A stretch of DNA of 45,149 bases from Planctomycetota bacterium (lineage in GTDB: Bacteria > Planctomycetota > Phycisphaerae > SM23-33): the NCBI GenBank assembly GCA_026693065.1, contig JAPLNA010000025.1, positions 1 through 45,149 of the forward strand, written 5' to 3'. Both the position numbers and the translations under genes were made by a program. Below are positions 2,465-39,850 of this stretch, piece by piece. Within the stretch, counting starts at the first letter, position 1. Every line of letters starts with the position of its first letter. Below the pieces are notes generated by a model. It was given only the letters and a program-made list of their open reading frames with translations, did not search any database and was not told where the DNA came from.

Positions 2465-2496
2465 GTCGGCGTGTGCCGGAGTTCTCCACCTGTGAT

Positions 2497-2525
2497 AGTA
2501 TCCCCGAGGGCCGAAAAGCACGCAA
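2497..2525 (-). promoter_or_regulatory. Putative sigma-70 promoter of the sigma-factor gene
   Basis: On the minus strand TTGCGT is followed by exactly 17 bases and then GATACT. The -10 box is about 33 bp upstream of the proposed ATG at 2464. Position and spacing are good; the hexamers match consensus only partly. Confidence 0.5.
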
Positions 2526-2646
2526 GAGGAATATCGCCCGGGCGGAAAAAAATGCAGAATTTTCGGCCGGTGGGGGCTCAGGTATCGTCCTGACATGTCC
2601 GCCGCCGGGGGGGGGCCGGAAGGGGCCCGGGCCGGCGAGGCGGGGG

Positions 2647-4662
2647 TTACTTGATCGCCTTGAGCCTCTCCCGCAGAAGCAGGGCGGGGGCGAGGAAAGG
2701 CGACTCGGTGCGGTCTTCATTTCCGCCGGCCCCCTTCAGGGCGTTGTTGACGGCGGCGGCGGCGGCGTCGCGGGCCTTGTTCATGCCATCGGTGTTCTGC
2801 TTGGCGAGGTCGCCCTCGAGGGCCTGCCGCCCGGCCCGCAGTTGGTAGGCCTTTTCCCAGGCGAGCCCGGCCAGGGTGTAGCCGGCCCATCGCACCTTGG
2901 TTTCGGTGGTGGCCTGGACGGCCTGGTCGAACCGCGCGGCGGCCTCTTCGCACTGCTTGGCCGCCTGATCCCGCCATTCGTTGGCGCCCGCAAGGGCCTG
3001 GTCGTCGGCCGGGGCGCTGGCCGGGCTACTGGCCGGGCTGCTGGCCGGCACGTGAGCGACAGCCGCCTCGGGGGTCAGCGAGTCCTTGGCCATCCGCTCG
3101 AGGTTCTTAGCCGGCTCGCTGTCGGGCAAGAGCTGGTTGACGCGGTCCCTGAGGGCCCGAACCTGCTCGGCCAGGAGGATGCCCTCGAGGGCCAGCGAGG
3201 CCTTAGCCATCCGGGCGACGCCCTGGTCGAGGTTGGCCTGAGCCTTCATCTGCCCATCGGCGTCTTCGCCGTCGGCGGGGATCGCGGCGTCCAAGGCCTT
3301 CTGGGCCTCGACGAGGGCCTCGCGGGCCTGGCCTTGGGCGACCATCACGCCGGCGACGAACACGGCCGGCCCGGCGTTCGCGGGGGCCTGCTTGACCGCC
3401 GGCGCCACGGGGGCCGGCGCCGAGGCCGGTTCGGACGTCGCCGCGGCGGCCGGGGCTTTCTCGGGCGCCGCGGCTTCGGCACGCTTCTCCGACGCCGGCA
3501 CCACGGGGTGTTCCTTGTCGCTCAGCCAGCCGGCCGCGTCGGCCAGCACCGTCGCCAGCTCGGCCTGCCGGTCCTTGGTCTGGGCGGCGAGCTCGGCGAG
3601 TCGCTTGTCGGCACTGGCCACGGCCTCGTCGCGCTGGGCCTGGGTCGTCAGGTCCCGCGCCAGGTCGGCGGCCACGCCGGCCTCTTGGATCTTCAGTTCG
3701 GCAATCTCGTTTTGTGCGTAGGCGAGTTTCGTTTCGAGTGCTTCGGCGTCGACGATGGACTTGCTGGCGGCCTTGTCCTTCTCGATGGCCTTGAGGGTGG
3801 TTTCGGCGGCCCCCTGCCCTGTCCCGGCAGCGCCGGCGGCCTTCTCCTCGTTGGCCTCTTTCCGCAGCCTGTCGCCGGTTTCCTGGGCGTCCTTGACCTG
3901 CTGCCGCAGCGTGGCGGCGGCAGACTCGGCGGCTTCCCGCTTGGTCTTCAGGTCTTCCTGGAGGGTCTTGGAGTCCGCGTTCAACTTCGGGTCCACGCCC
4001 TTGGCGATCTTGTCCTTGTACTGGCGGTAGTAGTCGGCTTGCTCGAGTTGCCAGGCGATGGCGTCGAGGCAAGCGGCGGCCTGGGCGAGCTGCCCGCGGA
4101 GTTCAACCCCCGCCAGCGCCGCCTGCCGGGCGTATCCCCGCCCCGTCAGCAGCCAGGCCATCCCCAGTTTCGCCTTCGCCAGGGCCACCGTCTTGGGGGT
4201 GCCCTTAGCCTCGTTGGCGTCCAGGGCGGCCTGCAGTTGCGTCCGGGCGGCGGCCAGCTTCGTCATGGCCGCGGGGTTCACGGTCGGGGCGGTCATCAGG
4301 CGATACGGCATCTTGCCGGCCTCGATGAACCCCTTCCACTTGGCATCCTGGGCCGTCCGCTGCTCCTCGGTCAACTGCGAGGCAAGCAGGTAGGGGATCG
4401 GGTCTTCGGGAAGGGCGGCGGGCAGGTCCTTGGCCCACGGGCCATGTTTGGGCGAGCCGTCCTTCGGGAGGAACTCGGAGGTCGGGTTGCCCAGAAGGCT
4501 CTCGGCGGCGGCGAGATTCTTGCCGGCCTGGTCGACGGCACTCATCAGGGCCTTGTCGGCAAGGCGGCTGGAGTTCTCCGGCCAGAATCGCAGGCCGGCC
4601 AATACGACCAGGGCCACGGCGACGCTGACGGCCACCACGATGATCGCCTTCTTGTTCTCCAC
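2647..4662 (-). CDS. Membrane-anchored Ala-rich coiled-coil protein, 671 aa
   Basis: Function not recognised. One hydrophobic helix (about residues 6-26, AIIVVAVSVAVALVVLAGL) follows a Lys-rich N-terminus, so the protein is probably anchored in the membrane with a large extracytoplasmic part. The rest is very rich in Ala, Glu, Lys and Gln, with long helical or coiled-coil stretches near 200-380, interrupted by Pro/Ala/Ser linkers near 400-440 and 540-560. Such layouts occur in TPR-like or periplasm-spanning proteins, but I see no diagnostic motif. The GTG start at 4662 is preferred over the ATG at 4686 because AAGGAG lies six bases upstream of the GTG. It is the last of a run of minus-strand envelope genes. 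Confidence 0.75.
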   Translation of the reverse strand: MENKKAIIVVAVSVAVALVVLAGLRFWPENSSRLADKALMSAVDQAGKNLAAAESLLGNPTSEFLPKDGSPKHGPWAKDLPAALPEDPIPYLLASQLTEEQRTAQDAKWKGFIEAGKMPYRLMTAPTVNPAAMTKLAAARTQLQAALDANEAKGTPKTVALAKAKLGMAWLLTGRGYARQAALAGVELRGQLAQAAACLDAIAWQLEQADYYRQYKDKIAKGVDPKLNADSKTLQEDLKTKREAAESAAATLRQQVKDAQETGDRLRKEANEEKAAGAAGTGQGAAETTLKAIEKDKAASKSIVDAEALETKLAYAQNEIAELKIQEAGVAADLARDLTTQAQRDEAVASADKRLAELAAQTKDRQAELATVLADAAGWLSDKEHPVVPASEKRAEAAAPEKAPAAAATSEPASAPAPVAPAVKQAPANAGPAVFVAGVMVAQGQAREALVEAQKALDAAIPADGEDADGQMKAQANLDQGVARMAKASLALEGILLAEQVRALRDRVNQLLPDSEPAKNLERMAKDSLTPEAAVAHVPASSPASSPASAPADDQALAGANEWRDQAAKQCEEAAARFDQAVQATTETKVRWAGYTLAGLAWEKAYQLRAGRQALEGDLAKQNTDGMNKARDAAAAAVNNALKGAGGNEDRTESPFLAPALLLRERLKAIK

Positions 4663-4798
4663 GGCGCACTCCTTGTTCGCCCGCATCGGGCAGGGATATC
4701 GGGCGGGGCCCGGCCTTCCGTGCCGCCCCGCCGCTACGTGTTCTTACCACGATCGCATTCGGTTTGCAAGTCTCACAATGCCATCCGTCGGCGGCATC

Positions 4799-5293
4799 TC
4801 AGGCGGCCTCGGGGGGCGCGGGCGGGAAGACCGCCGCCAGAAGCTTCACCGCCCGCTCAATCACGGGCATGCTCACTCCCCCCTGCGCCATCGGACAGGC
4901 CAGCACCAGCACCTGGCGTCGGGCCCCGATGCTGCCTCCGCCCCGCCCGAAGTCGTCCAGCTCGCCGGCCAACGCCACCACGTACGACCGCGCCTCCCGC
5001 GCCGGGCCGTGACCGCCTTCGCAGTGAAAGTCAAACGTCCGGAACGGCCAGCCCCCCACCGTCCCCGTCGTGACGTTCCGCACGCGCGGGCTGTGCCCGA
5101 TGCCGAAGAAAACGAAATCGCCCAGCCGTCCGGGCAGATCGAGGGAGTCTTCCTTCTCGAAGCGGAACCCCAGGTCGAGGGCCTGTCGGACCAGGCGGCG
5201 TGCGCGGCGAGACTGTGCCAGCCCGAGCCCGACGAAATACGCCACCGCTCCCGCCAGAACGGTCCCCAGCAGCCATGGCCAAGTGTTCTCCAC
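4799..5293 (-). CDS. Hypothetical single-span membrane protein, 164 aa
   Basis: The N-terminal 27 residues form a membrane helix (WLLGTVLAGAVAYFVGLGLA) followed by a basic cluster (QSRRARRLVRQ), which predicts a cytoplasmic soluble domain. That domain (about residues 28-160) contains FRFEKEDSLDLPGRLGDF and then a beta-rich GTVGGWPFRTFDFHCEGG segment. I do not recognise the family. The start is GTG with only a weak purine-rich site. It lies 42 bp downstream of the CX4CH protein gene and may be in the same transcript. Confidence 0.65.
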   Translation of the reverse strand: MENTWPWLLGTVLAGAVAYFVGLGLAQSRRARRLVRQALDLGFRFEKEDSLDLPGRLGDFVFFGIGHSPRVRNVTTGTVGGWPFRTFDFHCEGGHGPAREARSYVVALAGELDDFGRGGGSIGARRQVLVLACPMAQGGVSMPVIERAVKLLAAVFPPAPPEAA

Positions 5294-5335
5294 GTCTCGC
5301 CCTATCTGGCAGAAGGAATCGCCCTCGCCGGGGCG

Positions 5336-6682
5336 TCAGGGAGCGCCGCTCGCGGCGCCGGGGTCGGCGGGCTTTTCCGGGGGCGCCGGGGCGCCCGTGT
5401 CGGGGCCCGGCTCGGGCTGGGTCTCGGGGACCTTGTCGGACCCATCGTCCTTCGTGTCGCCGCCGCTGCCCCCCAGGGGCTTGGCCGGCTGAAGAACGCC
5501 CTCCAGCGAGCCGCCGAAATCCAACTTCACCCCTTCCGGGGCCGTATAGTCCAGCGACAGGTCGCCGCGATCCTTCCGCAGCGAACTGATCCACCGCAGC
5601 ACGTCCTGGTACGCCCCGTCGCCCGTGTTCTTGTACAACGGGAGCCAGCCCTTGACCTTCGCGTGCCGCAACTGCCCGTCCTTGGGCGGCAAATCGTTGG
5701 GAAGCCCGTATTGCAGCAGCAGCGACCGCTCCGGCTCGTTCCGGTCGATCAGCCGATCGCCGGTTTTGCCGACCATGCCGTCCAGCAGGATGAAGTTCGT
5801 GTACGCCGCCGCCGCCCCGGCGTCGGGACGATTGACCAGCCGGATGACGCCGTTGAGTTTCGCTCCGCCGTGGCACTCACGGCTGCCGCATCGGAGGGCC
5901 ACCCGCGTCCAGACCTTCTCTCGCATCCGCACGATGACCCGGGGGTCGCTCTTGACGGCGACGTCCTTCAGGATGTCGGCGGCGTCGGCGGTGCCGGCGA
6001 CGGCGTCGCGGATCCGGACGGCCCTGGCGGCCGGCGTCAGGGCCTGGAACCGCTGCAAGGCCTTGGCGTCATCGGCGATCTCCTTGCCCAAGGGCGTCTT
6101 GAGGAACCGCTTGACGACGTCGTTGCTGAACACGATGGGCAACTGGTTCTCGTCGGAGGTCAACTCGGAGAGCCTGATCTTCTGAATATCCCCCGGGCCC
6201 GCCAGGGCAATCTCGCCCGGCTTGACCGCCGGTGGCTCGTCCGGCCCGGTCGTGCCCTCCTTGGGACCGACCGAGCCCGTGCCGGTTCCGGCCGTCAGAA
6301 GCTCCAGGAGCTTCTTCGCCTTGGCGTGGTCCTTGTCGATGTCCAGCGCCTCGCGGACTTCCTTCTCGGCGACGCTGAGCTGGTTGCGATCGTAGGCCCA
6401 TTGGCCCACTTTGACGTGGTCGTCGGCGCTCTTGGCGTCGATACCCGCGAGCTTCTGCTTGTACTCCTCCGAGAAGCTCATCACGTCGGTGACCTTGGCG
6501 ACGTCGTCCCTGCTGATCTCCCGCGAGCCGTACTTGCTCTTGACGAGATACCCCCCGGCCGTCTCGCTGACGTCCCCCGTAACGGTCGAACCGTCCTTGA
6601 GGACCAGGGTCTTCATCGCCGCCGGCGCCCACGCGGCGGAAGCCAGAACGATCACGACGCCCATCAACACTCTACCGGCCAT
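5336..6682 (-). CDS. Secreted protein with CX4CH motif, 448 aa
   Basis: A signal peptide is clear (about residues 1-22, ending near WAPAA). It is followed by a short beta-rich module (VLKDGSTVTGDV...REISRDDVAKV), a TPR-like helical stretch (about 85-130) and a larger domain containing CGSRECH at 265-271. A CX4CH signature may bind c-type haem, but only one is present and haem binding is an inference. The C-terminus is a Pro/Glu/Gly-rich disordered tail. The ATG at 6682 is chosen because it begins the signal peptide and has GAGGTG just upstream; the longer ORF start would put coding sequence through the tRNA spacer. The N-terminal module resembles that of the next secreted protein (6947-8089). 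Confidence 0.75.
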   Translation of the reverse strand: MAGRVLMGVVIVLASAAWAPAAMKTLVLKDGSTVTGDVSETAGGYLVKSKYGSREISRDDVAKVTDVMSFSEEYKQKLAGIDAKSADDHVKVGQWAYDRNQLSVAEKEVREALDIDKDHAKAKKLLELLTAGTGTGSVGPKEGTTGPDEPPAVKPGEIALAGPGDIQKIRLSELTSDENQLPIVFSNDVVKRFLKTPLGKEIADDAKALQRFQALTPAARAVRIRDAVAGTADAADILKDVAVKSDPRVIVRMREKVWTRVALRCGSRECHGGAKLNGVIRLVNRPDAGAAAAYTNFILLDGMVGKTGDRLIDRNEPERSLLLQYGLPNDLPPKDGQLRHAKVKGWLPLYKNTGDGAYQDVLRWISSLRKDRGDLSLDYTAPEGVKLDFGGSLEGVLQPAKPLGGSGGDTKDDGSDKVPETQPEPGPDTGAPAPPEKPADPGAASGAP

Positions 6683-6788
6683 AGTACACCTCGCATTGCA
6701 GAGACTGGGATATCTCTCTATGAGTCGGCCATTCGCGCCGGGCCCATCGAGCAAATCTTTCGCATGCTCCCGTGGGCCCACAGGGCAC

Positions 6789-6862
6789 AGGCGGCGGTGG
6801 GATTCGAACCCACGTATAACGGATTTGCAATCCGTCGCCTTGGTCCGCTTGGCTACGCCGCC
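6789..6862 (-). tRNA. tRNA-Cys (GCA)
   Basis: The minus strand folds as a complete cloverleaf. The acceptor GGCGGCG pairs with CGCCGCC, the anticodon loop TTGCAAA carries GCA, and the T arm is GTGGG-TTCGAAT-CCCAC. The discriminator base is U, as is standard for tRNA-Cys. CCA is not encoded. Confidence 0.96.
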
Positions 6863-6946
6863 GGATCGGCCAGAGAACTATACTCCCCCCGCCCCGGGCG
6901 GTCAACCCTCCGCCCCGCGCCGGCGGAGGAAAACCTCACCGCCCCC

Positions 6947-8089
6947 TCAACCGGGCTTCTTCCCGGACAGTTTGGCCAACGCCCCCTTGGCCTCCTCGAC
7001 GATGTCCTTGGCGGACTTGTACGCCGGGTCCGTCGTCACCTTCTCGTAGGCCTTCTCCGCCGCCTGGGTGTTGCCCAGAAGTTCATTCACACGGCCGGCA
7101 TACAGAAGGGCCTCGGCGGCGACGGGGGCCTTCGTGGCGGCCACCTTGGCCCGCATGAAACTCACCCCCGCCTGCACCAGCAGACCCTTCCGCGCGTCGG
7201 CGTCGGTCTTCTCCGACATCGGAAGGGCCTGGTACAGCCTGGCCTTGCCGATCAGCACCAGCGTCGGGCCCACTTCCGCGGCAATGCACTGGGGCAGGCT
7301 GTCCGTAAGACGGGCCGCCTGCTCGGCCAGAACCGCGGGCTTCTGCCCCGCCCGGATCAACCCGCCCGCCCCCGCCGAAGATGCCGTCCGCGCCGCTTCG
7401 CCGCTCTCGACGGAGGAAGCGGTCACTTTGCTCGGGTCGCCCTCCGTGCCGGCCCGGGGGGGAACGGCCCCCGCGAGCGTCGCGGCGATCTTGTCGGCCT
7501 TGTCGTCCTGCCCTTCCCGACGGTACAACTGCATCAGCAGCTCACGGGCTTTCGTCCGGACCACGTTGCTCTTGATCTCCCCCATTCGGCTCTCGAGGGC
7601 GCTGATGGCCTGCGCGTTCCGCTCGTCGCCCTTGTCGGCCAGTTCGTGCGGCATGAGGGTGATCACCGCCGGCGACGTGTCCGTCGCCACGATGTCCAGC
7701 CACGTCGAAACCGCCGACGCGATCGACTTGTCCTTGCCCAGGGCCTCCACCTTGCGATACCGCGCCAGTTGCGCCAGCCACGCCGGGGTGTCCCCGTTCG
7801 AGATCACGCCGTCGTACAGGCCCGTCGCGTCAGCGACCTTGTCGCCGGCGCGGAGTTCCTCGGCCTTGTTGAAGGAGTCCTGCCCGTCGATGGCGATCTG
7901 CACGACGTCCTTCAGCGAGCGGGTTCGTTCCTGGGCGGAGGCGTTGGTATAGGTCAGATCGCCGTCTTTGAACCCGGTGATGCGGTCGACCGAGATGACC
8001 ATATTCCGGCTCAAGACGATCTTGTCCGCCGCCGCCGCGCCCGCCAGCACGCCCACAAGAACCGACACCGTCACTATTCGTCGTCGCAT
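6947..8089 (-). CDS. Secreted TPR-like helical repeat protein, 380 aa
   Basis: A signal peptide (RRRIVTVSVLVGVLAGAAAA, cleavage near residue 21) is followed by a short beta-rich segment (DKIVLSRNMVISVDRITGF) like the one after the signal peptide of the 5336-6682 product. The remainder is mostly helical, Ala-rich and organised like tetratricopeptide repeats; the clearest unit is near the C-terminus (LLYAGRVNELLGNTQAAEKAYEKV). The protein is probably periplasmic and mediates protein contacts; no catalytic motif is visible. The ATG at 8089 has GGAG eight bases upstream and a TATAAT box about 100 bp upstream. tRNA-Cys lies between it and the next gene of the run. Confidence 0.75.
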   Translation of the reverse strand: MRRRIVTVSVLVGVLAGAAAADKIVLSRNMVISVDRITGFKDGDLTYTNASAQERTRSLKDVVQIAIDGQDSFNKAEELRAGDKVADATGLYDGVISNGDTPAWLAQLARYRKVEALGKDKSIASAVSTWLDIVATDTSPAVITLMPHELADKGDERNAQAISALESRMGEIKSNVVRTKARELLMQLYRREGQDDKADKIAATLAGAVPPRAGTEGDPSKVTASSVESGEAARTASSAGAGGLIRAGQKPAVLAEQAARLTDSLPQCIAAEVGPTLVLIGKARLYQALPMSEKTDADARKGLLVQAGVSFMRAKVAATKAPVAAEALLYAGRVNELLGNTQAAEKAYEKVTTDPAYKSAKDIVEEAKGALAKLSGKKPG

Positions 8090-8192
8090 GCGTGTTCTCC
8101 CGCGCCGGGCCTTGTTGGCTAGCCGCCCGGGGCCTCGTTAGAGACTCCAACCCGTATTCTGACAGAACCCGTCGGTTAAGGCAACCCTATCT

Positions 8193-8221
8193 ATTATACG
8201 CGGCGAGGGTTCCTTGACGAG
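8193..8221 (-). promoter_or_regulatory. Putative promoter of the secreted TPR-like gene
   Basis: A perfect TATAAT reads on the minus strand at 8198-8193. The -35 region at 17-bp spacing is poor (CTCGTC) and overlaps the -35 box of the divergent tRNA-Leu promoter. It would give a leader of about 100 nt. Confidence 0.45.
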
Positions 8222-8242
8222 TGTCCCCGGGTGCATTAGAGT
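8214..8242 (+). promoter_or_regulatory. Putative sigma-70 promoter of tRNA-Leu
   Basis: TTGACG, exactly 17 bases, then TAGAGT on the plus strand. The -10 box ends 23 bp before the first base of tRNA-Leu, which fits a short 5' leader. Confidence 0.6.
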
Positions 8243-8265
8243 GGATTCTTCAGGCGGCGCCTCCG

Positions 8266-8347
8266 GCGAGGGTGGCGGAATTGGCAGACGCGCCAGGTTT
8301 AGGTCCTGGTCCCGAAAGGGGTATGGGTTCGAGTCCCGTCCCTCGCA
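8266..8347 (+). tRNA. tRNA-Leu (TAG)
   Basis: An 82-nt class II tRNA. The acceptor GCGAGGG pairs with CCCTCGC and the discriminator is A. The anticodon stem-loop CCAGG-TTTAGGT-CCTGG gives TAG. A long variable arm (GGTCCCGAAAGGGGT) and the T loop GGTTCGAGTCC are present. CCA is not encoded. It is the only RNA gene on the plus strand here. Confidence 0.96.
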
Positions 8348-8388
8348 TGGCGGCCCGGGGGGTTCAGGCCTCCCCCCGCCGGCCGCCA
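8348..8388. terminator. Strong GC hairpin between tRNA-Leu and the convergent glycosyltransferase gene
   Basis: TGGCGGCC-CGGGGGG, loop TTCAGGCCT, then CCCCCCG-cc-GGCCGCCA forms a 15-bp stem with a two-base bulge. It begins just after the tRNA 3' end and ends just before the stop codon of the convergent gene, so it probably acts in both directions. There is no T tract, so it is not a textbook intrinsic terminator. Confidence 0.5.
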
Positions 8389-8389
8389 C

Positions 8390-9939
8390 TCAGGGGCGAA
8401 TCTGCTGCTTCAACGCCTGGCGGTCTTTCCGCACCGCGTACCGCGTCTGCAGGCTCAGCAGCGAAACGTACAGGAACCCGAACGTGAACATCGCCAGGAA
8501 CGGCGCCCACAGGATCGTTCGCCCCCCGCCGGCCACGCTGAGCACCAGGCACACCAGCATGTAGATCGCGAAGGCGATCTCCACGACGGGAACGTAGTCG
8601 AACCGTTTCTTCTTCCGGGGCAGGTGAACGTCCGGCGAGGGCACGGTCCGCGCGTCCCCGTACTTGGGCGTCCGCACGAATTCCGTCTTCTTGCCGAACA
8701 ACGCCTCGAGGATCGCCTTGGTGTTCGATACGCACAACCCCACGCCCAGGGCCATCAGCATCGGCATGAACTTGAGGATCGTCCGCCAGTCGCCGAACAA
8801 CTCGATCTGGCTGGCGGCGTAGAACAGCATCGCCGACATCGTCGCCAGGGCGAAGATCGCCACGTCGAAGACGCTCTGCCCCACCGTGCCGGGGGCGTAG
8901 GGCAGCAGGCGGGTGTACATCGCCGGCAGGATCATCGTCATCAGCATCAGCACGTAAATGTGCACGGAGAAGCCCGTCAGGTGGAAGAACGCCTCGATCT
9001 TGACCTTCAGGGGCAGCTTGGCCAGCATGACCTTCGGCAGCATCTTCAGGGCCGTCTGGGCCCCACCCTTCGTCCAGCGGAACTGCTGGGCCTTGAACGC
9101 GTGAACTGCTGGGCCTTGAAGGCGTTCATCTCCGGGGGCAACTCCGCCGGGGCCGTTACGTCAGGCAGGAACACGAACTTCCACCCCTTCATCTGCGCCC
9201 GGTACGACAGGTCCAGGTCTGCCGTCAGCGTGTCGTGGTGCCAGCCGCCGGCGTCGGCGATGGCGCTCTTGCGCCACGTGCCCGCCGTCCCGTTGAAGCT
9301 CATGAACCGGTCGCTCCGGTTCCTCGCCACGTGCTCGATCGCAAAGTGGCCGTCCAGATAAATCGCCTGCGATTGCGTCAGCAGGCTGTCGTACCGGTTG
9401 ATGTGCTCCCAGCGGGTCTGCACCACGCAGACCTTCGGGTTGGTGAAGTGGTGAATGGACCGCATCAGGATGTCCGGGGCGGGCACGAAGTCGGCGTCGA
9501 AGATCATCACGAACTCGCCCTTGGCGCTCTTGAGCCCGTTCTCCATCGCCCCGGCCTTGTAGCCCGACCGGTCCGTGCGGTGAATGTGCTCGACGTCAAA
9601 GCCGTGGGCCCGGGCCTCTTCGCACGCGGCCGCGGCGATCTGAACCGTGTCGTCCGTGCTGTCGTCCAGCACCTGGATCTGCAGTTTCTCTCGCGGGTAG
9701 TCGATCTGGCAGGCCTTCTCGATGATCCGTTTGGCCACGTACTGCTCGTTGAACATCGGCAGTTGGATCGTCACGAGGGGCAGTTGGTCGAACTTCCCGG
9801 GCGCCAGAGGGACGTTCTTGCGGTGCCGGTAGTACAGGTACACGATGATGTAGCGGTGAAGCCCGTACATCGACACCATCACCATCGCGAAGGTGTAGAC
9901 CGACATGAACATCACGTGAAAGAAGCTGGTCCAGTCCAT
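8390..9939 (-). pseudogene. Cellulose-synthase-like family 2 glycosyltransferase, broken by a 23-nt duplication
   Basis: The N-terminal part (start ATG 9939, AGGA eight bases upstream) has one membrane helix and the GT2 catalytic signatures DDSTDDT (92-98), DAD (148-150) and TADLDLSYR (239-247). It then runs into an early stop. The second ORF (8390-9043) holds the C-terminal membrane helices (for example VHIYVLMLMTMILPAMYTRLL). The two join perfectly as MNAFKAQQF-RWTKGG if one copy of a 23-nt direct repeat is removed. The break lies exactly in the QxxRW motif, so the enzyme as written is inactive. The intact form would be an inner-membrane processive glycosyltransferase making a beta-linked polysaccharide, of the cellulose or mannan synthase type; the sugar cannot be told from sequence. 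It may be a real mutation or an assembly error. Confidence 0.85.
9080..9120 (-). repeat. 23-nt tandem duplication in the glycosyltransferase gene
   Basis: GAACTGCTGGGCCTTGAA occurs at 9080-9097 and again at 9103-9120, separated by CGCGT. Removing 23 bases restores the reading frame and the QQFRW motif. Confidence 0.9.
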
Positions 9940-14852: not shown

Positions 14853-15236
14853 TTACCGCAGCTCCTTGACGGATTTCTTTCCTGCGACCGTCTTGCGCGG
14901 GCCCTTCCGGGTCCGGGCGTTGGTCTTGGTACGCTGTCCGCGGACGGGCAGCCCACGCCGGTGCCTCATCCCCCGGTAGCAGCCGATCTCGCGCAGCCGC
15001 GAGATGTTCTGCTGCGTCTGACGCCGCAAGGCGCCTTCAATGACGTAGTCCCGCTCCAGGATCGTGTTGATCTTGCCGAGCTGGTCTTCCATCAGTTCCT
15101 TCGCCCGAGTCTTCGGATCGATTCCGACCTTCTCGCAGATCTCCAGCGCGAACGCCGGGCCGATCCCGAAAATGTACTGCAACGAGATCACCGTCTGCTT
15201 GTCGTTGGGAATGTCGACACCTGCCACACGCGGCAT
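14853..15236 (-). CDS. rpsM: Small-subunit ribosomal protein S13
   Basis: A 127-aa S13 beginning [20 protein letters not shown]. It has the conserved [20 protein letters not shown] block and a basic tail that reaches the P-site tRNA. S13 sits in the 30S head and bridges to L5. Length is normal. It follows rpmJ by 22 bp at the head of the alpha cluster. Confidence 0.99.
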
Positions 15237-31280: not shown

Positions 31281-34200
31281 TCAATCCAATCCCAGCAACG
31301 CCTGGGCCGCCGCGGACTTCTGGTCGGCCTCGCTGATCTCCTCGCTCGACAGGCCGAACAGCTCGCCCAGTTCCACGTTCCGCTTCACCCGCATGTTCAC
31401 GTACGGGTGGAAGCTCGTGCCGGCCGGAATCAGGTGGCCCAGGATCACGTTTTCCTTCAGCCCGATCAGGTTGTCAATCTTGCCGGCCAGCGAGGCCTCG
31501 GTAAAGACCTTCGTGCTTTCCTGGAAGCTCGCCGCCGACAGGAAGCTCTCCGACTGCAGCGAGGCCTTCGTGATGCCCAGCAGCAGCGTCTTGGCGGTCG
31601 CCGGCTTGGCGCGGGACGTCTTGGCGGGCTGGCCGCCCTTGGTCTCGGCTTCCATGTTGGCCCGCTCGACGTCGTCCTTCGAGACGATCTCGCCGGCCTT
31701 CAATCCGGTGTCGCCCGGGTCCACGACCTTCAACGACCCGGCAACCCGCTTATTCTCCTCGATAAACAGCGTTCTGTCAACCACATCTCCCGGCAGCAAC
31801 TCCGTGTCGCCGATGCTGTCCACCATGACCCGGCGCAGCATGCGGGAGAGAATGATCTCCATGTGCTTATCATTGATGTTCTGCCCCTGGCCGCGGTAGA
31901 CGCTCTGGACCTCGCCCAGGAGGTATTCCTGCAGCTTCTCCTCGCCGCGAATGGCCAGAATGTCGTGCAGAACCAGCGGGCCTTCCGTCAGCGGGTCGCC
32001 CGCTTCCACGTAGTCGCCCGTGTGAACCAGCAGGTGCTGGTCGTGCGGCACGTGGTGCTCGCGCTCCATGCCCGAGTCGCTCCGGACGATGATCGTCATC
32101 TTGCCGCGACGCTTGTCCGTCCGCAGTTCCACGCGCCCGGAAATCTCCGCCATCGCGGCCGGGTCCTTCGGCTTGCGGGCCTCGAACACTTCCGTCACGC
32201 GGGGCAGGCCCCCCGTGATGTCCTGCGTGCCCGTCACCTCGCGAGGCTGGCGGGCGAGCAGTTCGCCGGGCTTGACCTGCTGGCCTTCCTCCACCTCGAT
32301 ACGAGCCTTCGCGGGCAGGTAGTGGAAGTCCAAAATGTGACCGGCCTTGTCCTCGATCTCGATTCGCGGGTGCTTCTCGCCCTTGTGCTCGATGACGACG
32401 TACCGCTGGCTGACGCCGCGGGCACGGGTGCCTTCGGCCTCGATGCGGACGGTTTCGCCTTCCTCGATGTCGCGGAAGCGGACGCTGCCGGCGGCCTCGG
32501 CCAGGATCGGCACCCGGTGCGGGTCCCACGTGGCCATCCGCTCGCCGGGCTTGACCTTCCCGCCTTCCTTCACCGCCACGATCGCACCGTAGGGAACCTT
32601 GTACTTCTCCAGCTCGCGGTTCTTCTCGTCCATGATCGCCAGTTCGCCGTTGCGCTTCAGGGCGATCATTCGCTTGCCGGCCTCGGTGCTCACCTCGACG
32701 ACGTTCAGCTCGCGGTAGGCCACCGTGCCGCCGGCCGTCGCGAGAATTTCCGACTCGACCACCGCGCGGGTAGCAACACCGCCGGTGTGGAACGTACGCA
32801 TGGTCAACTGCGTGCCCGGCTCGCCGATCGACTGGGCGGCGATGATCCCCACCGCCATGCCCTCTTCCACCAGCTTGCCGGTCGAGAGGTCCATGCCGTA
32901 GCAGCGGGCGCAGATGCCCAGCGGGCTTTCGCACGTCAGGGCGCTGCGGACGCGAATGCTCTCGACGCCCAGGTCTTCGATCTTGCGGGCCATCGCCTCC
33001 GAAATGATCTGGTCTTCCTTCACGATCATCTCGTCGGTGATGGGGTTGACGAGGTTCTCGCGGGCGATGCGCCCCTTGAGCATCTCACGCAGGGGCACGT
33101 CCACCTGCGCGCCCGTGTAGATCCGGGCGCCGTGCGTGGACGAGAAGTATTCCAGCACCGTCAGGCCTTCGCGGAAGTTGGCCTTAATGGGGGTTTCGAT
33201 AATCTCGCCGGAGGGCTTGGTCATCAGGCCACGCATGCCGGCCAACTGGCGGATCTGGTCGACGTTGCCGCGGGCGTTGGAGTGCAGCATCAGCCAGACC
33301 GGGTTCAGGTAGTTCGGGTCGTCCTTGCGCTGGTCGCCCTTGAGGGCTTCCATGAGGCTTCGCGTGACTTCTTCGCGGGCGTGAATCCACACGTCCACGA
33401 TCTGGTTGTACCGCTCGCCGTCGGTGATGGCGTCGTTCTGGTAGTCGCTCTGGATCTGGTCCACGCGCTTCTGCGCCCGGTCCAGGATCGCCGGCTTGTT
33501 CTCGGGAATCTTCGCGTCGGTAATCCCGAAGCTCAGTCCCGCCAGCGTCGCGTACTTGAACCCCAACGCCTTCATCCGGTCCAGCAGGTCCAGCGTCGAG
33601 GGCTTGCCCAACGCCTGGTAGCAGTCGCTGATGACGCGGTTGGCGTCCTTCTGGCCCAGCGACATGTTGTAGTAGCTCATGCCCTTGGGCAGGATGTCGT
33701 TGAAGATGCACCGCCCCGGCGTCGTCAGGATGCGACCGCGCTCGGGGGCGTACTTCGTCTCTCGCTCCACCACCATCTTCACCGTCGGCATGCGGACGAT
33801 CACCTTCGCGTGCATGCCGATCCGACCCAGCGCGTGGGCGCTGATGGCTTCCTCGGCCGTCGCGAAGATCGGGTATAGCGTACCTTGTTCTCCACTCTTC
33901 GGCACAAGGATTCGCTCATCGAGGAGGTGTTCTGTAATGTGGTCGCGCAGGCTACTCGCCCCTTTGCCGAGGCAGTGGTACTCAAGTCTTTCGCGGAGGC
34001 CACGCTTTCTGCCCGGCTTGACTATGCCTATGTAACCATCATTCACCTTCCCGGTTCTCTTGCTTCGGAATATGTAGATTCCGGGCTTTTCCGGCGCACG
34101 GGACGGGTCATTTGCCCACCCCGACTTACTACCTGCCAATGCGATAGCCTGTTCGAAAAGCTCCTTCTGGCTCGGGCTAGCATTGTTCTTCCACCACTCT

Positions 34201-36011
34201 TTGAAATTAGCAATGCCGTCCGCAGAACGAGCATAGTTATTCCGTGTGTTCCACCGGGGCAGATGGTTCTTTTCCGTCTTGGATGGATCGGGGAACTCGA
34301 TCATCAACCGACCTTCCAAGCACTCGATTTCTTGGGCATCCAAGTCCGGGGTCGCCAAGATCTGGAATTCCAGTTCTTCCTCGATGTACTGATTAAGCTC
34401 CTTCTTCCAGTCGGGCTTCTTTGCGTCCGGGCCGTAAGGGACCTTCTTGACGTCGTCGGTGACGAACGCGCTGCCGCCCTCGGCCGTCAGGTAGTACACG
34501 CCCAGGACGATGTCCTGCATCGGCATCGTGTTGGGAGCGCCGTTGGCGGGCGAGAAGATGTTGTTCGTCGACAGCATGAGCACGTGGGCTTCGGCCTGCG
34601 CCTCGACGGACAGGGGCAGGTGGACGGCCATCTGGTCACCGTCGAAGTCGGCGTTGAAGCCTTTGCAGACCAGCGGGTGAATGCGGATGGCGTTGCCCTC
34701 GACCAGGACGGGCTCGAAGGCCTGGATGCCCATGCGGTGAAGCGTCGGGGCGCGGTTCAGAAGCACCGGGTGCTGGTAGATCACTTCTTCCAGCACGTCC
34801 CAGATTTCCGGCTCGCGGCGTTCGAGCATCCGCTTGGCGGACTTGATCGTGTCGGCCAGGCCGCGTTCCTTCAGCCGCCGGATGATGAACGGCTGGTAGA
34901 GCTCCAGGGCGATCTTCTTGGGCAGTCCGCACTGGTTGAGCCGCAGCTCGGGGCCCACGACGATCACGGACCGGCCCGAGTAGTCCACGCGTTTGCCCAG
35001 CAGGTTTTCGCGGAAGCGCCCCTGCTTGCCCTTGATCATGTCGGTGAGGCTCTTGAGGGGGCGGTTGGCCGTCCCCTGCACCGGGCGGCGGCAGCGGCTG
35101 TTGTCGAACAGGGCGTCGACGGCCTGCTGCAGCATCCGCTTCTCGTTCCGGATAATCACCTCGGGGGCGTTCAGGTCCATCAGCTTCTTCAGCCGGTTGT
35201 TCCGGTTGATGATGCGACGGTACAGGTCGTTCAGGTCGCTCGTGGCGAAGTTGCCGCTCTCCAGCAGCACCAGCGGGCGGAGGTCCGGCGGAATCACCGG
35301 GATCACTTCCATCACCATCCACTCCGGACGGTTGCCCGAAACGCGGATGTTCTCCACCAGCTTGAGCCGCTTGATGAAGTCCTTGCTCTTCTGCTTGCTC
35401 TTGGTCTTGGCCAGGTCGTCCCGTAGGTCGCCGGCGAGCTTTTCCAGCTCGAGCTTCTCGAGCAGAACGCGGATGGCTTCGGCGCCCATCTCGGCCTTGA
35501 AGTCCGTGCCGTACTGCTCGACCGCCGAGCGGTATTCATCCTCGCTGAGCACCTGCTGGTACTTCAGCGGGGTCTGCCCCGGGTCGGTCACGACGTAGTC
35601 CTGGAAGAGGATGACCTTTTCCAGATCGGCGGTCTTCATCGCCAGCAGCGTGCCCAGCCGACTGGGCAGGGCCTTGAAGAACCAGATGTGAACCACCGGA
35701 GCGGCCAGGTTGATGTGCCCCATCCGCTTGCGCCGCACGCGCGAGTGCGTCACCTTCACGCCGCAACGGTCGCAGATGATGCCCTTGTGCTTCGTGCCCT
35801 TATACTTGCCGCACGCGCACTCCCAGTCGCGCTCCGGGCCGAAGATCCGCTCGCAGAACAGCCCGTCCTTCTCCGGGCGGTACGTGCGGTAATTGATCGT
35901 CTCGGGGCGCTTGACCTCCCCGAACGACCAACTGCGGATATCGTTGGGCGAAGCCAACTGGATCCGGACCGACCCGTAATCGTTGATTCGATCGTATACG
36001 CTTTCTGCCAT
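31281..36011 (-). CDS. rpoC: RNA polymerase subunit beta' with a GIY-YIG domain insertion
   Basis: A 1576-aa beta' subunit. The N-terminal zinc site (CACGKY...CDRCG, 65-83), the catalytic NADFDGDQM (453-461), the bridge-helix/trigger-loop block ([25 protein letters not shown]) and the second zinc site ([13 protein letters not shown]) are intact, so the polymerase should work. Between [11 protein letters not shown] (ending at 513) and the beta' sequence resuming near [20 protein letters not shown] (715) lie about 200 extra residues; most bacteria have a short loop here. The second half contains PGIYIF (643-648), YIG (660-662), RERLEYH (R675, H679) and GKGASSL, the order of a GIY-YIG nuclease. 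The frame is continuous on both sides. Hand-counted GC for 33901-34440 is about 54%, against about 67% in adjacent lines. No other rpoC gene part is disturbed. Confidence 0.97.
33873..34440 (-). mobile_element. In-frame GIY-YIG homing-endonuclease-like insert within rpoC
   Basis: The insert spans about residues 524-713 of beta'; exact ends are uncertain. Its composition is Asn/Lys/Trp-rich in places ([20 protein letters not shown]) and GC-poor compared with the host gene. The GIY-YIG part (641-710) aligns in order with the I-TevI type: GIY, 13 residues, YIG, then R-x3-H. The late catalytic Glu and Asn are not certain, so activity is unknown. No intein signals (N-terminal Cys/Ser block, C-terminal HN) are visible. 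Confidence 0.65.
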
Positions 36012-36038: not shown

Positions 36039-39000
36039 TTAGACAAGCGCCTTCTTTTCCAGTTGTATGTTCAGACCCAGGCCGCGGAGTTCGTTGCACA
36101 GCACGTCGAAGCTGACCGGCGTGCCCGCCTCGAGCGTGTTGGCGCCCTTGACCATGGATTCGTAAATCTTCGTCCGGCCTTCGACGTCGTCGCTCTTGAC
36201 CGTCAGGAGTTCCTGCAGCGTGTAGCTGGCGCCGTAGGCCTCCAGGCCCCAGACTTCCATCTCGCCGAACCGCTGCCCGCCCGTGCGGGCCTTGCCGCCC
36301 AGGGGCTGCTGCGTGATCAGCGAATACGGGCCCGTCGCACGAGCGTGAATCTTCTCGTCCACCAGGTGATGCAGCTTGTTCATGTAAATGAACCCGACGG
36401 TGGCCTTCTGCTCCAACGCCTCGCCCGTCCGCCCGTCCGACAGGATCATCTTCCCGCCGAAGGGCATGTGCTGGAGAATCTCCCGCGTGTCGCCGGCCTG
36501 CTGAACCACGCCCATGTCCGCGCTCCGCACGGCGACGTGCTCGTTGGCTTCCTTGACGACGTCGAAGATCTCCTGCTCCTTGGCTCCGTCAAAGACGGGG
36601 GTGACGGCCTGGAAGCCCAGGATCGCCGCCGCCCAGCCCAGGTGCGTCTCCAGAATCTGACCGAGGTTCATACGCCCGGGCACGCCCAGCGGGTTCAGGC
36701 AGATATCGATCGGCGTGCCGTCGGCCATGAAGGGCATGTCCTCTTCCGGCAGGATGCGGGCGATGACGCCCTTGTTGCCGTGGCGCCCAGCCATCTTGTC
36801 GCCCACGCCCAGCTTTCGCTTGGTGGCGACGCGGACCTTCACCATCTCCAGCACGCCCGAGGGCAACTCGTCGCCGCGCTTCATGTGGGCGAGTTTGCGT
36901 TCGGTCTCGGCCTGCACTTCCTGAATCCGAGGCCAGAACCGTTCGTAGATCGTGTCCACCTGCTCGCGGACGGTGGCGTTGGTGGTCTTGGCCCACTTGG
37001 GGTTGAAGTTTTCGATCTGTTCGACGAGCACGGCCTCGATGTCGCTCTGGGCGACCTTCTGGCGGGTCGTCGGGTCGATCATCGGAGCGCCCAGGACGGC
37101 GTTCATCTCCTCGACCATCTTGGCGAACAGCTCGATCAGGCGCACATTCATCTCGCTGCGGAAGTCCTTCATCCGCTTGGCGAGGTCTTTCTTTTGCTGG
37201 TCGGACATGCTCATCCGGCGGCTGAAACGCCGGGCGTCCACCACCACGCCTTCCTCGCCGGCGGGCAGTTCGAGCGAGTCGTTCTTGACGTCCTCGCCCG
37301 CCCGCCCGAAGATCGCGTGCAGCAGCTTCTCTTCCGGCGACAGTTCGCTCTTGCTCTTGGGGCTGACCTTGCCGACCATGATGTCGCCCGGGCCCACCCG
37401 CGTGCCGATCCGAACCACGCCGTTCTCGTCCAGGTTCCGCAGCGCCCGCTCGGAGACGTTGGGGATGTCCCGCGTGAACTCCTCGCGGCCGAGCTTCGTC
37501 TCGCGGACTTCCACGTCGTACTCTTCCAGGTGGACGCTCGTGAAGCAGTCGCCCTTGACCAGCCGCTCGCTGATCAGGATGGCGTCCTCGAAGTTGTAGC
37601 CGTCGAAGGGCATGAACGCGACCAGCACGTTACGTCCCAGGGCCAGTTCGCCGTGGCTGGTGGCCGAGCCGTCGGCGATCACGTCGCCCTTCTTGACCCG
37701 CTGGCCTTCCTTCACCACGGGCTTCTGGTTCAAGCACGCCCGCTCGTTGAGCTTGTTGAACTTCCGCAGCTTGTACTCGTCGGTGTTGTCGATCACGATC
37801 CGCATGCCGTCGGAGAACGTCAACGTGCCGCCCTTGCGGGCGCGAACCACCATCGACGAGTTCACCGCCACGTGACGCTCCATCCCCGTCGCGACGACGG
37901 GCGGCTCGGTCCGCAGAAGCGGCCCGGCCTGGCGCTGCATGTTGGATCCCATCAGCGCGCGGTTGGCGTCGTCATGCTCCAGGAACGGAATCAGCGCGGC
38001 GGAAATGCCCACCGTCTGCTTGGGCGAAATATCCAGGAACTGCACGTCCTTGCCTTCCACCAGCAGCACGTCCCCGCGGGCGCGGGCCAGCACGTGTTCC
38101 TTGGGCAACTTGTGCGTCTGCCCGCGGGTGGTCGGCTCGAGGGAGTCCGGCGGGGCCAGCACGGCCTCGATCTCTTCGTCCGCCCGCAGGGCGACCACTT
38201 CTTCCGTCACCAGGCCCTTGGACACCCGCCGGTACGGCGTGGTGATGAACCCGTACTCATCCACGCCGGCGTAAATGCCCAGCGAGGTGATCAGGCCGAT
38301 GTTCTGGCCTTCCGGGGTTTCGATCGGGCAGATGCGGCCGTAATGGCTGATGTGCACGTCGCGCGTCTCGAAGCCCGCCCGCTTGCGGTTCAACCCGCCC
38401 GGGCCCAGGGCCGACAGGCGACGCTCGTGCGCCAGTTGGCTCAACGGATTCTGCTGGTCGACGACCTGGCTCAGTTCGCCCCGGCCGAAGAAGAACTCCA
38501 TCGCCGAGGAAATGCTCTTGGAATTCACCAGTTCGGAGATCTTCGAGAGCTCCTCGGCGTCCTTGAGGCTCATGCGTTCCTGCACGGTGCGGCGGAGCTT
38601 CAGGAAGCCCTTGCGCAGCTCTTCGCTGGCCAGCTCGTCGATGGTGCGGAGGCGGCGGTTGCCCAGGTGGTCGATGTCGTCCACCACGCCCTGGCCGTCT
38701 CGCAGGTGCATGATGTACTTGAGCGTCTGGATCATGTCCTCGACGTGGATGACCATTTCCTTTTCAGGAATCTCGAGGTTGAACTTGCGGTTCAGGCGGA
38801 ACCGCCCCACCTTGCCCAGGCGGTAGCGGTTCTCGTCGTAGAACTTCTCGTCGAAGAGGGTCTTGGCCTTCTCCAACTGCGGCGGGTTGCCCGGACGCAG
38901 CCGTTTGTAAATGTTGATCAGCGCCTCGTCGTGCGAGTGCGTCGGGTCTTCCGACAGGGTGTTGAGCACCAGCGGATCGACCGCGCCGTCGACGATCAGC

Positions 39001-39803
39001 ACCTTCTTGATCGTGGAAGACTGGATGCGGGTGAGGGTCTCGCCGATCTGCCCGCCGGCGGGAACCAGTTCCTCGCCGCTGTCGGGGTCGATGACGGCCT
39101 CGCCCACGTACGTCTGGGGCTCCAACTGCGAGACGCCCACGCTCTTGACCGGGTAAAACTCCTCGATCAGGCTCTTGTCCGTCCCGAACTTCTCGCTCAT
39201 CGCCCGCAGGAACGTCGTCGCGGGGATCTTGCTCGACTGGTCGATCCACATCGTCAGCGAGTCTTTCTTCGTGACGGCGATCTCGATCCAGCTTCCGCGT
39301 TCGGGGATCAGCCTGGCCCCGTGCAGCGGGCGGTCAGACTCCTGCATCTTCACCGAGAAGTCCACGCCGGGGGATCGGTGCAACTGCGAAACGATCACGC
39401 GTTCGGCGCCGTTGATGATGAACGCGCCCCCGCCGATCATCTTGGGGATTTCGCCCAGGTAAATGCTTTCCTCGACGACATCCTTGGTTTCCTTGCGGAC
39501 CAGGCGGCAGCGGATGCGGAAGGGAAGCCCGTACGTCAGACGCAGGTCGCGGCACTCCTGCACGTCGTACCGCGGATCGTCCATTTCGTAATAGAGATAC
39601 TCCAACTTCGTCCGCTCGTCGTAGCTGACGATGGGGAAGATTTCCCGCAGCAGGGCCTCGAGCCCCTCGTGCTTTCGCCTCGTGGGTTCGGCGTCGGCCT
39701 GCAGGAACCGCTCGTAGCTCTTGACCTGGATTTCGACCAGGTCGGGGACGGGGATGGCGTCACCGACTTTCGAGAAATCGCGGATTCGGTCCATTCGCAG
39801 CAT
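36039..39803 (-). CDS. rpoB: DNA-directed RNA polymerase subunit beta
   Basis: A 1254-aa beta subunit, counted from the ATG at 39803, which has AGAGGTG about seven bases upstream; the ORF track start at 39830 lacks one. The rifampicin pocket reads [26 protein letters not shown], keeping the Asp, His and Ser whose changes usually give resistance. Other conserved blocks are [17 protein letters not shown], the catalytic-site [43 protein letters not shown] and [21 protein letters not shown]. It is 121 bp after rplL, a gap that holds a strong hairpin, and 27 bp before rpoC. Confidence 0.98.
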
Positions 39804-39850
39804 CGTGAGCACCTCTGTCCGTTCGTACAACGTCCGCTGTCACAACTTTG

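Follow-up and report, generated by a model that had tools for sequence, protein, structure and literature searches.

An in-frame insert in rpoC of a planctomycete

The stretch of DNA analyzed here (the window) comprises 45,149 nucleotides of contig JAPLNA010000025.1, from assembly GCA_026693065.1 of a Planctomycetota bacterium (Phycisphaerae; SM23-33). Its gene rpoC, encoding the beta' subunit of RNA polymerase (RNAP), carries an in-frame insert related to GIY-YIG nucleases, and this insert and its homologues are the subject of our analysis. The gene is a single frame of 1576 codons without interruption, as a first-pass annotation of the DNA letters had stated, and it is the sole rpoC match in the window genome. 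The rpoC products of relatives align to residue ∼526, and the alignment picks up again at ∼709. On the basis of the short loops of these relatives (for example, VEYKGEKYPAF), we placed the insert at amino acids 528 to 711, between VKKVPYG and LYPIF. It is thus 184 residues long, with the frame open on both sides, and no insert was found at this position among the family relatives searched.

The alignment with relatives' rpoC, a check proposed in the first-pass annotation, therefore both defined the ends of the insert and identified relatives without it. The span that had been given, 33873 to 34481, contains a real insert but is slightly wide compared to the bounds obtained from the relatives' loops (33879 to 34430). 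The insert had also been described as lying right after the catalytic motif NADFDGDQM (residues 453 to 461). It does lie downstream of this motif, but the insertion loop is ∼70 residues away, and the suggested location near the active center is not borne out by closeness in sequence. The GC content of the insert is 0.54 versus 0.65 in the remaining rpoC, and the difference at third codon positions is larger (0.65 versus 0.91). The claim of a foreign composition thus held; hand counts at first pass had given ∼54% for the segment and 67 to 68% for the flanking lines.

Can the insert be removed after translation or from the transcript? Inteins begin with Cys, Ser, or Thr, end with His-Asn, are followed by Cys, Ser, or Thr, and contain splicing blocks. 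The insert begins with PDAKK and ends with SGEQGT followed by Leu, so the end residues of an intein are absent, and scans with Pfam and NCBIfam returned no match to intein splicing-domain families. Searches of the window region with Rfam revealed no group I or group II intron RNA (E ≤ 1), and at eight other loci, Rfam matched nothing in the polymerase genes at the gathering score. In addition, the whole insert is coding and taken up by the nuclease domain, which leaves no space for a ribozyme. The lack of intein motifs and the preserved frame noted at first pass were therefore upheld, and signs of an intron were likewise missing.

Evidence for a circularly permuted GIY-YIG nuclease domain

The motifs GIY (644 to 646) and YIG (660 to 662) and the pair R675/H679 are located where they had been reported, and the second half of the insert is the GIY half of the nuclease. 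That the first half is the Glu/Asn half of this nuclease, and no accessory domain, had been missed. After strand b3, a helix bears a Glu (566) that is almost invariant, and P-x-x-N with an invariant Asn (588) follows. The order of the window domain is b3-a3(Glu)-Asn-linker-GIY-YIG-Arg-His-a2, which does not follow the canonical GIY-YIG order b1-b2-a1-a2-b3-a3. Judged by this arrangement of strands, helices, and motifs, the domain is GIY-YIG derived and circularly permuted, which sets it apart from canonical members.

Both halves could be related to UvrC. A profile of the relatives of the element matched planctomycete UvrC GIY-YIG domains over the GIY half (hhalign probability, 97%; P = 1.5e-10), and UvrC chains were the top, weak matches in a sequence search of the PDB. 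The Glu/Asn half aligned with UvrC over the pattern FxxTxxxxEALxLExxLIKxxxPxxN (P = 6.5e-4), with a score reached by 0 of 100 column shuffles. The profile search that had been suggested at first pass gave a divided answer, since Pfam matches of the window insert stayed below threshold for both PF01541 (13.8 bits; threshold, 22.6) and PF20815 (15.6 bits; threshold, 22.4). Swapping the halves of the window insert increased the PF20815 score up to 17.7 (coverage, 35 to 132), and rotating further members lifted none of them above the Pfam thresholds. The domain is related to GIY-YIG nucleases but does not belong specifically to the I-TevI family.

The AlphaFold model of the window domain was confident (predicted local distance difference test [pLDDT], 86.2; predicted template-modeling score [pTM], 0.81) and placed the linker helices at model residues 77 to 90 and 93 to 107. 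In the model, the element forms an a/b domain that carries the GIY-YIG motifs and has neither the BEAN bracket fold nor the four-stranded sheet and GD-box of HABAS. A Foldseek search of the permuted model against the PDB retrieved nothing at E ≤ 0.001, as expected for a permuted chain because Foldseek aligns chains in order; this negative weighs neither for nor against the permuted order. The model of an unpermuted element (genome G585; G numbers are the genome labels of our analysis, with G000 for the window genome) was of poor quality and unusable. MAFFT misaligned alignments that mixed the two halves.

A family of elements confined to rpoB and rpoC

With a two-row profile, we obtained 12 matches among 397 genomes of the class, all in frames of the size of rpoB or rpoC and confirmed by alignment to these genes. 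A search of the phylum with unswapped parts revealed another rpoC, in G189, whose homologue of the insert is also in frame but at a different site. With better profiles and with searches of whole families, the total reached 24 elements, window included; their 22 host genomes belong to the class (records labeled Phycisphaerae or Planctomycetota). The 23 further homologues match the profiles with E-values down to 1e-72, far above chance. All 24 elements are in frame in rpoB or rpoC, and they occupy six sites, three per gene (Table 1), a family that the first-pass annotation of a single locus had missed. Two genomes carry two copies each: G645, with one in rpoB and one in rpoC, and G774, with both in rpoB. 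The junctions were defined by empty sites in species of the same genus or the same family. Presence in three families is patchy (12/89, 5/39, and 1/35 genomes) and varies within genera.

Are such elements found in other genes? We scanned 84,980 genomes (257 Gb) with the degenerate DNA signature GIY[FI]F-x-x9-GY-x-G and obtained 21 matches. Thirteen were members of the family, every one in rpoB or rpoC of Phycisphaerae/Planctomycetota; the other eight (GlmS-like, a membrane protein, and others) did not match the element profile. Neither the class-wide profile search nor the signature scan found an element outside rpoB and rpoC. This restriction is not a bias of the search, because the profile contains no host sequence. 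Comparison of the raw insert with phage and plasmid collections gave no matches or chance ones, and viral contigs contained no relatives and one chance pattern match. Weak family matches at three further loci (L035 and L036, NikR-like by sequence, and L032) were dismissed as chance.

The only protein other than RpoB and RpoC returned by the class-wide search with better profiles was a small free-standing GIY-YIG protein of canonical order in G552. It lies in a 129-amino-acid frame (L115; G552:C27, ∼14905 to 15123), and the helix at its N terminus is similar to the linker found in the RNAP elements. This protein is a candidate for the ancestral form of the RNAP elements. The phylum search also returned weak matches of UvrC size.

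Table 1. Features of the window and insertion sites of the element family in RNAP genes
Feature	Position in window	Strand	Remarks
rpoC (RNA polymerase beta')	31281..36011	minus	Single copy, 1576 aa including insert
Circularly permuted GIY-YIG nuclease domain, site rpoC-A	33879..34430	minus	In-frame insert, aa 528-711, absent from relatives
Host loop N-terminal of insertion, VKKVPYG, aa 521-527	34431..34451	minus	Alignable to empty relatives
First half: strand b3 ELEFQIL (546-552), helix a3 with Glu566, LPRWN with Asn588	34248..34376	minus	Canonical GIY-YIG C-terminal half
Helical linker, aa 589-631, from nuclease C-terminal half to GIY half	34119..34247	minus	Homologous in all members
Second half: W632, GIY (Y646), GYIG (Y660), R675, H679, SSLRDHI	33936..34118	minus	Canonical GIY-YIG N-terminal half
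Host loop C-terminal of insertion, LYPIF, aa 712-716	33864..33878	minus	E. coli beta' ∼residue 523
rpoB (beta)	36039..39830	minus	Without insert in window genome; elsewhere three sites for the same element family
Site rpoC-A			G000 (window), G746, G645; E. coli beta' ∼523
Site rpoC-B			G677, G585; E. coli beta' ∼705
Site rpoC-C			G189, G461; E. coli beta' ∼1082
Site rpoB-D			G645, G558, G555, G734, G776, G778, G755, G775, G774, G777, G506, G795; E. coli beta ∼330
Site rpoB-E			G707, G674, G757; E. coli beta ∼1200
Site rpoB N-terminus			G036, G774; E. coli beta ∼11

Permutation, selection, and horizontal movement of the elements

Three permutations, that is, three opening points, occur in the family, and most members have the order of the window element. 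The G189 element is opened between b3 and a3. The halves are swapped in the G585 element, as evidenced by a profile made without it that matches the GIY half (1.5e-22) and then the Glu half (1.7e-11). At sites B and C, two different permutations are found at each. All members share a homologous linker between Asn and GIY, which indicates that the two ends had already been joined in their common ancestor.

Pairs of elements with measurable synonymous divergence (dS) had ratios of nonsynonymous to synonymous divergence (dN/dS) of 0.11 to 0.16, revealing purifying selection. Both tyrosines (Y646 and Y660 in the window) were kept in 22 of 23 members, His and Asn (H679 and N588) in 23/23, Glu (E566) in 21/23, and Arg (R675) in 20/23; all six residues were kept in 19/23. 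Residue conservation and selection together fit what would be a working nuclease with occasional decay. Separately, the rpoC insert of G677 (L061, open reading frame 2495 to 7339, plus strand) has lost four of the six catalytic residues (GII, FVG, Lys for Glu, and Ser for Arg) with its frame intact, and this element may be either decayed or domesticated.

Is the insertion site inherited along with the element? In an IQ-TREE phylogeny of 23 elements, the six sites required 10 changes (minimum, 5), and 66 of 200 shuffles required as few, so that site is nearly random relative to element kinship. The two copies in G774 belong to different clades, as do the two in G645, and one element clade (support, 100/99) covers three sites. 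The most direct comparison came from G707 and G674, two genomes of the same genus from separate studies with an element at the same site. Their elements differ by a dS of 0.090 and a dN of 0.010, versus 0.702 and 0.036 in the flanking rpoB. The stretch of low divergence ends within ∼6 codons of one junction and within 1 to 2 codons of the other. This island of identity does not extend beyond the element, which was exchanged after its hosts diverged and thus moved horizontally. GC content was below that of the host gene in 23 of 23 measured elements (sign test, 2.4e-7). The sequences show that the element has spread horizontally and that, at least once, it recently passed by itself from one lineage to another.

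Further observations on rpoB

Several rpoB genes showed additional features. In the single-contig assembly of G757 (L116; G757:C1), rpoB is broken by a run of N, and the two gene parts lie ∼1.1 Mb apart, which makes the scaffolding doubtful. The rpoB of G036 (L067, open reading frame 4282 to 9378, minus strand) contains at amino acids ∼461 to 704 a second, unrelated in-frame insert, at a position equivalent to window rpoB ∼231 to 241. This insert has a weak match to PF21790 (E = 0.0067), a family resembling 8-oxoguanine glycosylase, and a match to phrog_24538 (8e-8), and is perhaps another type of DNA-acting domain in RNA polymerase. In G774 rpoB (L110, open reading frame 3727 to 9024, minus strand), the host motif TVRNFG..DA is found twice downstream of the N-terminal element, the copies agreeing at 29 of 42 bases, as though the start of the gene had been doubled by the insertion. 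Four rpoB genes of genus g388 without an element (L155, L156, L157, and L158) have a lysine-rich extension of ∼20 residues exactly at site D, possibly a scar from element loss.

A proposed homing-like element resident in RNA polymerase and its alternatives

We consider it more probable than not that these elements are a family of spliceless, in-frame, moving GIY-YIG domains that reside in tolerant loops of RNAP beta and beta' in Phycisphaerae and spread in a homing-like manner. The first-pass annotation had raised a spliceless mobile element as one option, and the family, the sites, and the transfer data from beyond the window support it well. The domain would be made as part of beta or beta', stay in the mature polymerase, and act as a DNA nuclease. 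It would cut the empty allele, and repair of the break would copy the element in. The surviving insertions would be only those in frame and in tolerant loops. Residence in an essential, constantly expressed gene may shield the element, since only its precise in-frame loss would be tolerated. Permuted versions could result from a copy that is circular or duplicated head to tail, if it opens at a different loop of the domain. We only tentatively extend this proposal to a new class of mobile element, a circularly permutable nuclease domain of endless frame that transposes, as a protein-coding cassette, among loops of beta and beta', in which each jump may reopen the circle elsewhere. If true, a parasite would travel as a permanent part of its host's own polymerase.

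Several observations weigh against homing-like spread. The insertion sites are variable loops, unlike the conserved targets typical for homing endonucleases, and several of the elements took the place of a few host residues, a pattern that resembles imprecise joining and not clean homing. Recent transfer is seen in the single pair G707/G674, and the other same-site pairs look old. The hosts, as far as named, are all metagenome-assembled genomes, and the evidence here is sequence. Residence in RNAP alone is more easily explained by an RNAP-linked function, which purifying selection fits as well. Such a function, the domesticated module of the first-pass annotation, is the main rival. A GIY-YIG nuclease tethered to RNAP might serve the cell in transcription-coupled repair like UvrC or in cutting R-loops or phage DNA, with copies transferred between species and kept only if fused to RNAP, at any surface loop that accepts them. 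The exclusive residence in rpoB and rpoC, which it explains better than homing-like spread does, speaks for it, as do the low dN/dS, the retained catalytic residues, and the closeness of the GIY half to UvrC in PDB and profile comparisons. However, it explains patchiness and site-hopping less well: variation within genera, six sites over both subunits, and two elements in one genome exceed the needs of a fixed function, the decayed active site of G677 is still in place, and transfer is confined to the element. On balance, we regard a host-serving module as a serious possibility that is nonetheless rather unlikely.

An ordinary lineage-specific insertional domain of RNAP, vertically inherited and immobile like BEAN/HABAS or SI1/SI3 of E. 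coli, appears improbable. RNAP is known to carry insertional domains, and sites C and D lie within what we take to be the E. coli SI3 and SI1 regions, respectively. Polyphyly and permutation have, moreover, been reported for HABAS (PMC11515920). Yet members of one genus differ in whether they carry an element, the element tree does not follow the sites, the G707/G674 pair displays its island of identity, and the GC content is foreign. Removal of the segment as an intein or intron, ahead of any function of the protein, would be consistent with its low GC content and with the fact that GIY-YIG nucleases are often carried in introns. An open frame across every junction, ends that are not of the intein type, and the missing ribozyme space and Rfam match make it highly improbable. 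As for an assembly artifact or a chance resemblance, the genomes are metagenome assembled, but 24 in-frame copies come from independent studies and assemblers, one contig has ∼1250x coverage, and the active site is conserved, so we give this explanation almost no credence.

Comparison with known systems

We found no description of GIY-YIG domains in RNAP, or of their permutation or movement, in the open-license literature searched, in agreement with the earlier impression that the arrangement is undescribed. BEAN and HABAS are insertional domains of RNAP, HABAS with circularly permuted topologies; PMC11515920 calls the mechanism of domain gain unclear and takes insertion to have tapered off once early evolution was over. 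Like the elements described here, they are polyphyletic in-frame domains at nonequivalent sites of beta and beta'. Unlike them, BEAN and HABAS are of ancient origin, track the bacterial tree, and have not been presented as nucleases (neither GIY-YIG nor nuclease appears as a word in PMC11515920), whereas the RNAP elements are nuclease domains with recent, patchy insertion that move between sites. Because empty sites exist in sister species, recent insertion into RNAP becomes a process that can be dated and tested. The family also offers a natural series of circular permutations and marks loops in both subunits that accept ∼200 extra residues.

HsdR of Methylococcus capsulatus (MCA0838) is likewise a host protein with an inserted GIY-YIG domain, which its close homologue lacks (PMC1564403). 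That is one Slx1-like case in a restriction subunit, with no family and no RNAP, and "permut" does not occur in that paper. The GIY-YIG domain at the N terminus of UvrC is the best sequence match of the GIY half and shares the E..P..N pattern, but UvrC has the canonical order and is a free-standing repair protein. Rickettsia palindromic elements are repeats that also sit in frame within protein genes and are translated; they differ in being short palindromes, in many genes, with no enzyme domain. I-TevI-type homing endonucleases share with the RNAP elements a GIY-YIG nuclease, patchy and horizontal occurrence, AT-rich composition, and a seat in essential genes. The RNAP elements, known from sequence, differ in that they have no surrounding intron or intein, are fused to the host protein, are permuted, and use variable-loop sites. 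This comparison suggests that a selfish or semiselfish nuclease could persist without splicing if it is tolerated in loops of an essential enzyme. The ingredients, namely, a GIY-YIG nuclease, an RNAP insertional domain, and homing-type spread, are thus known; their moving, permuting, spliceless, RNAP-only combination is what we consider new.

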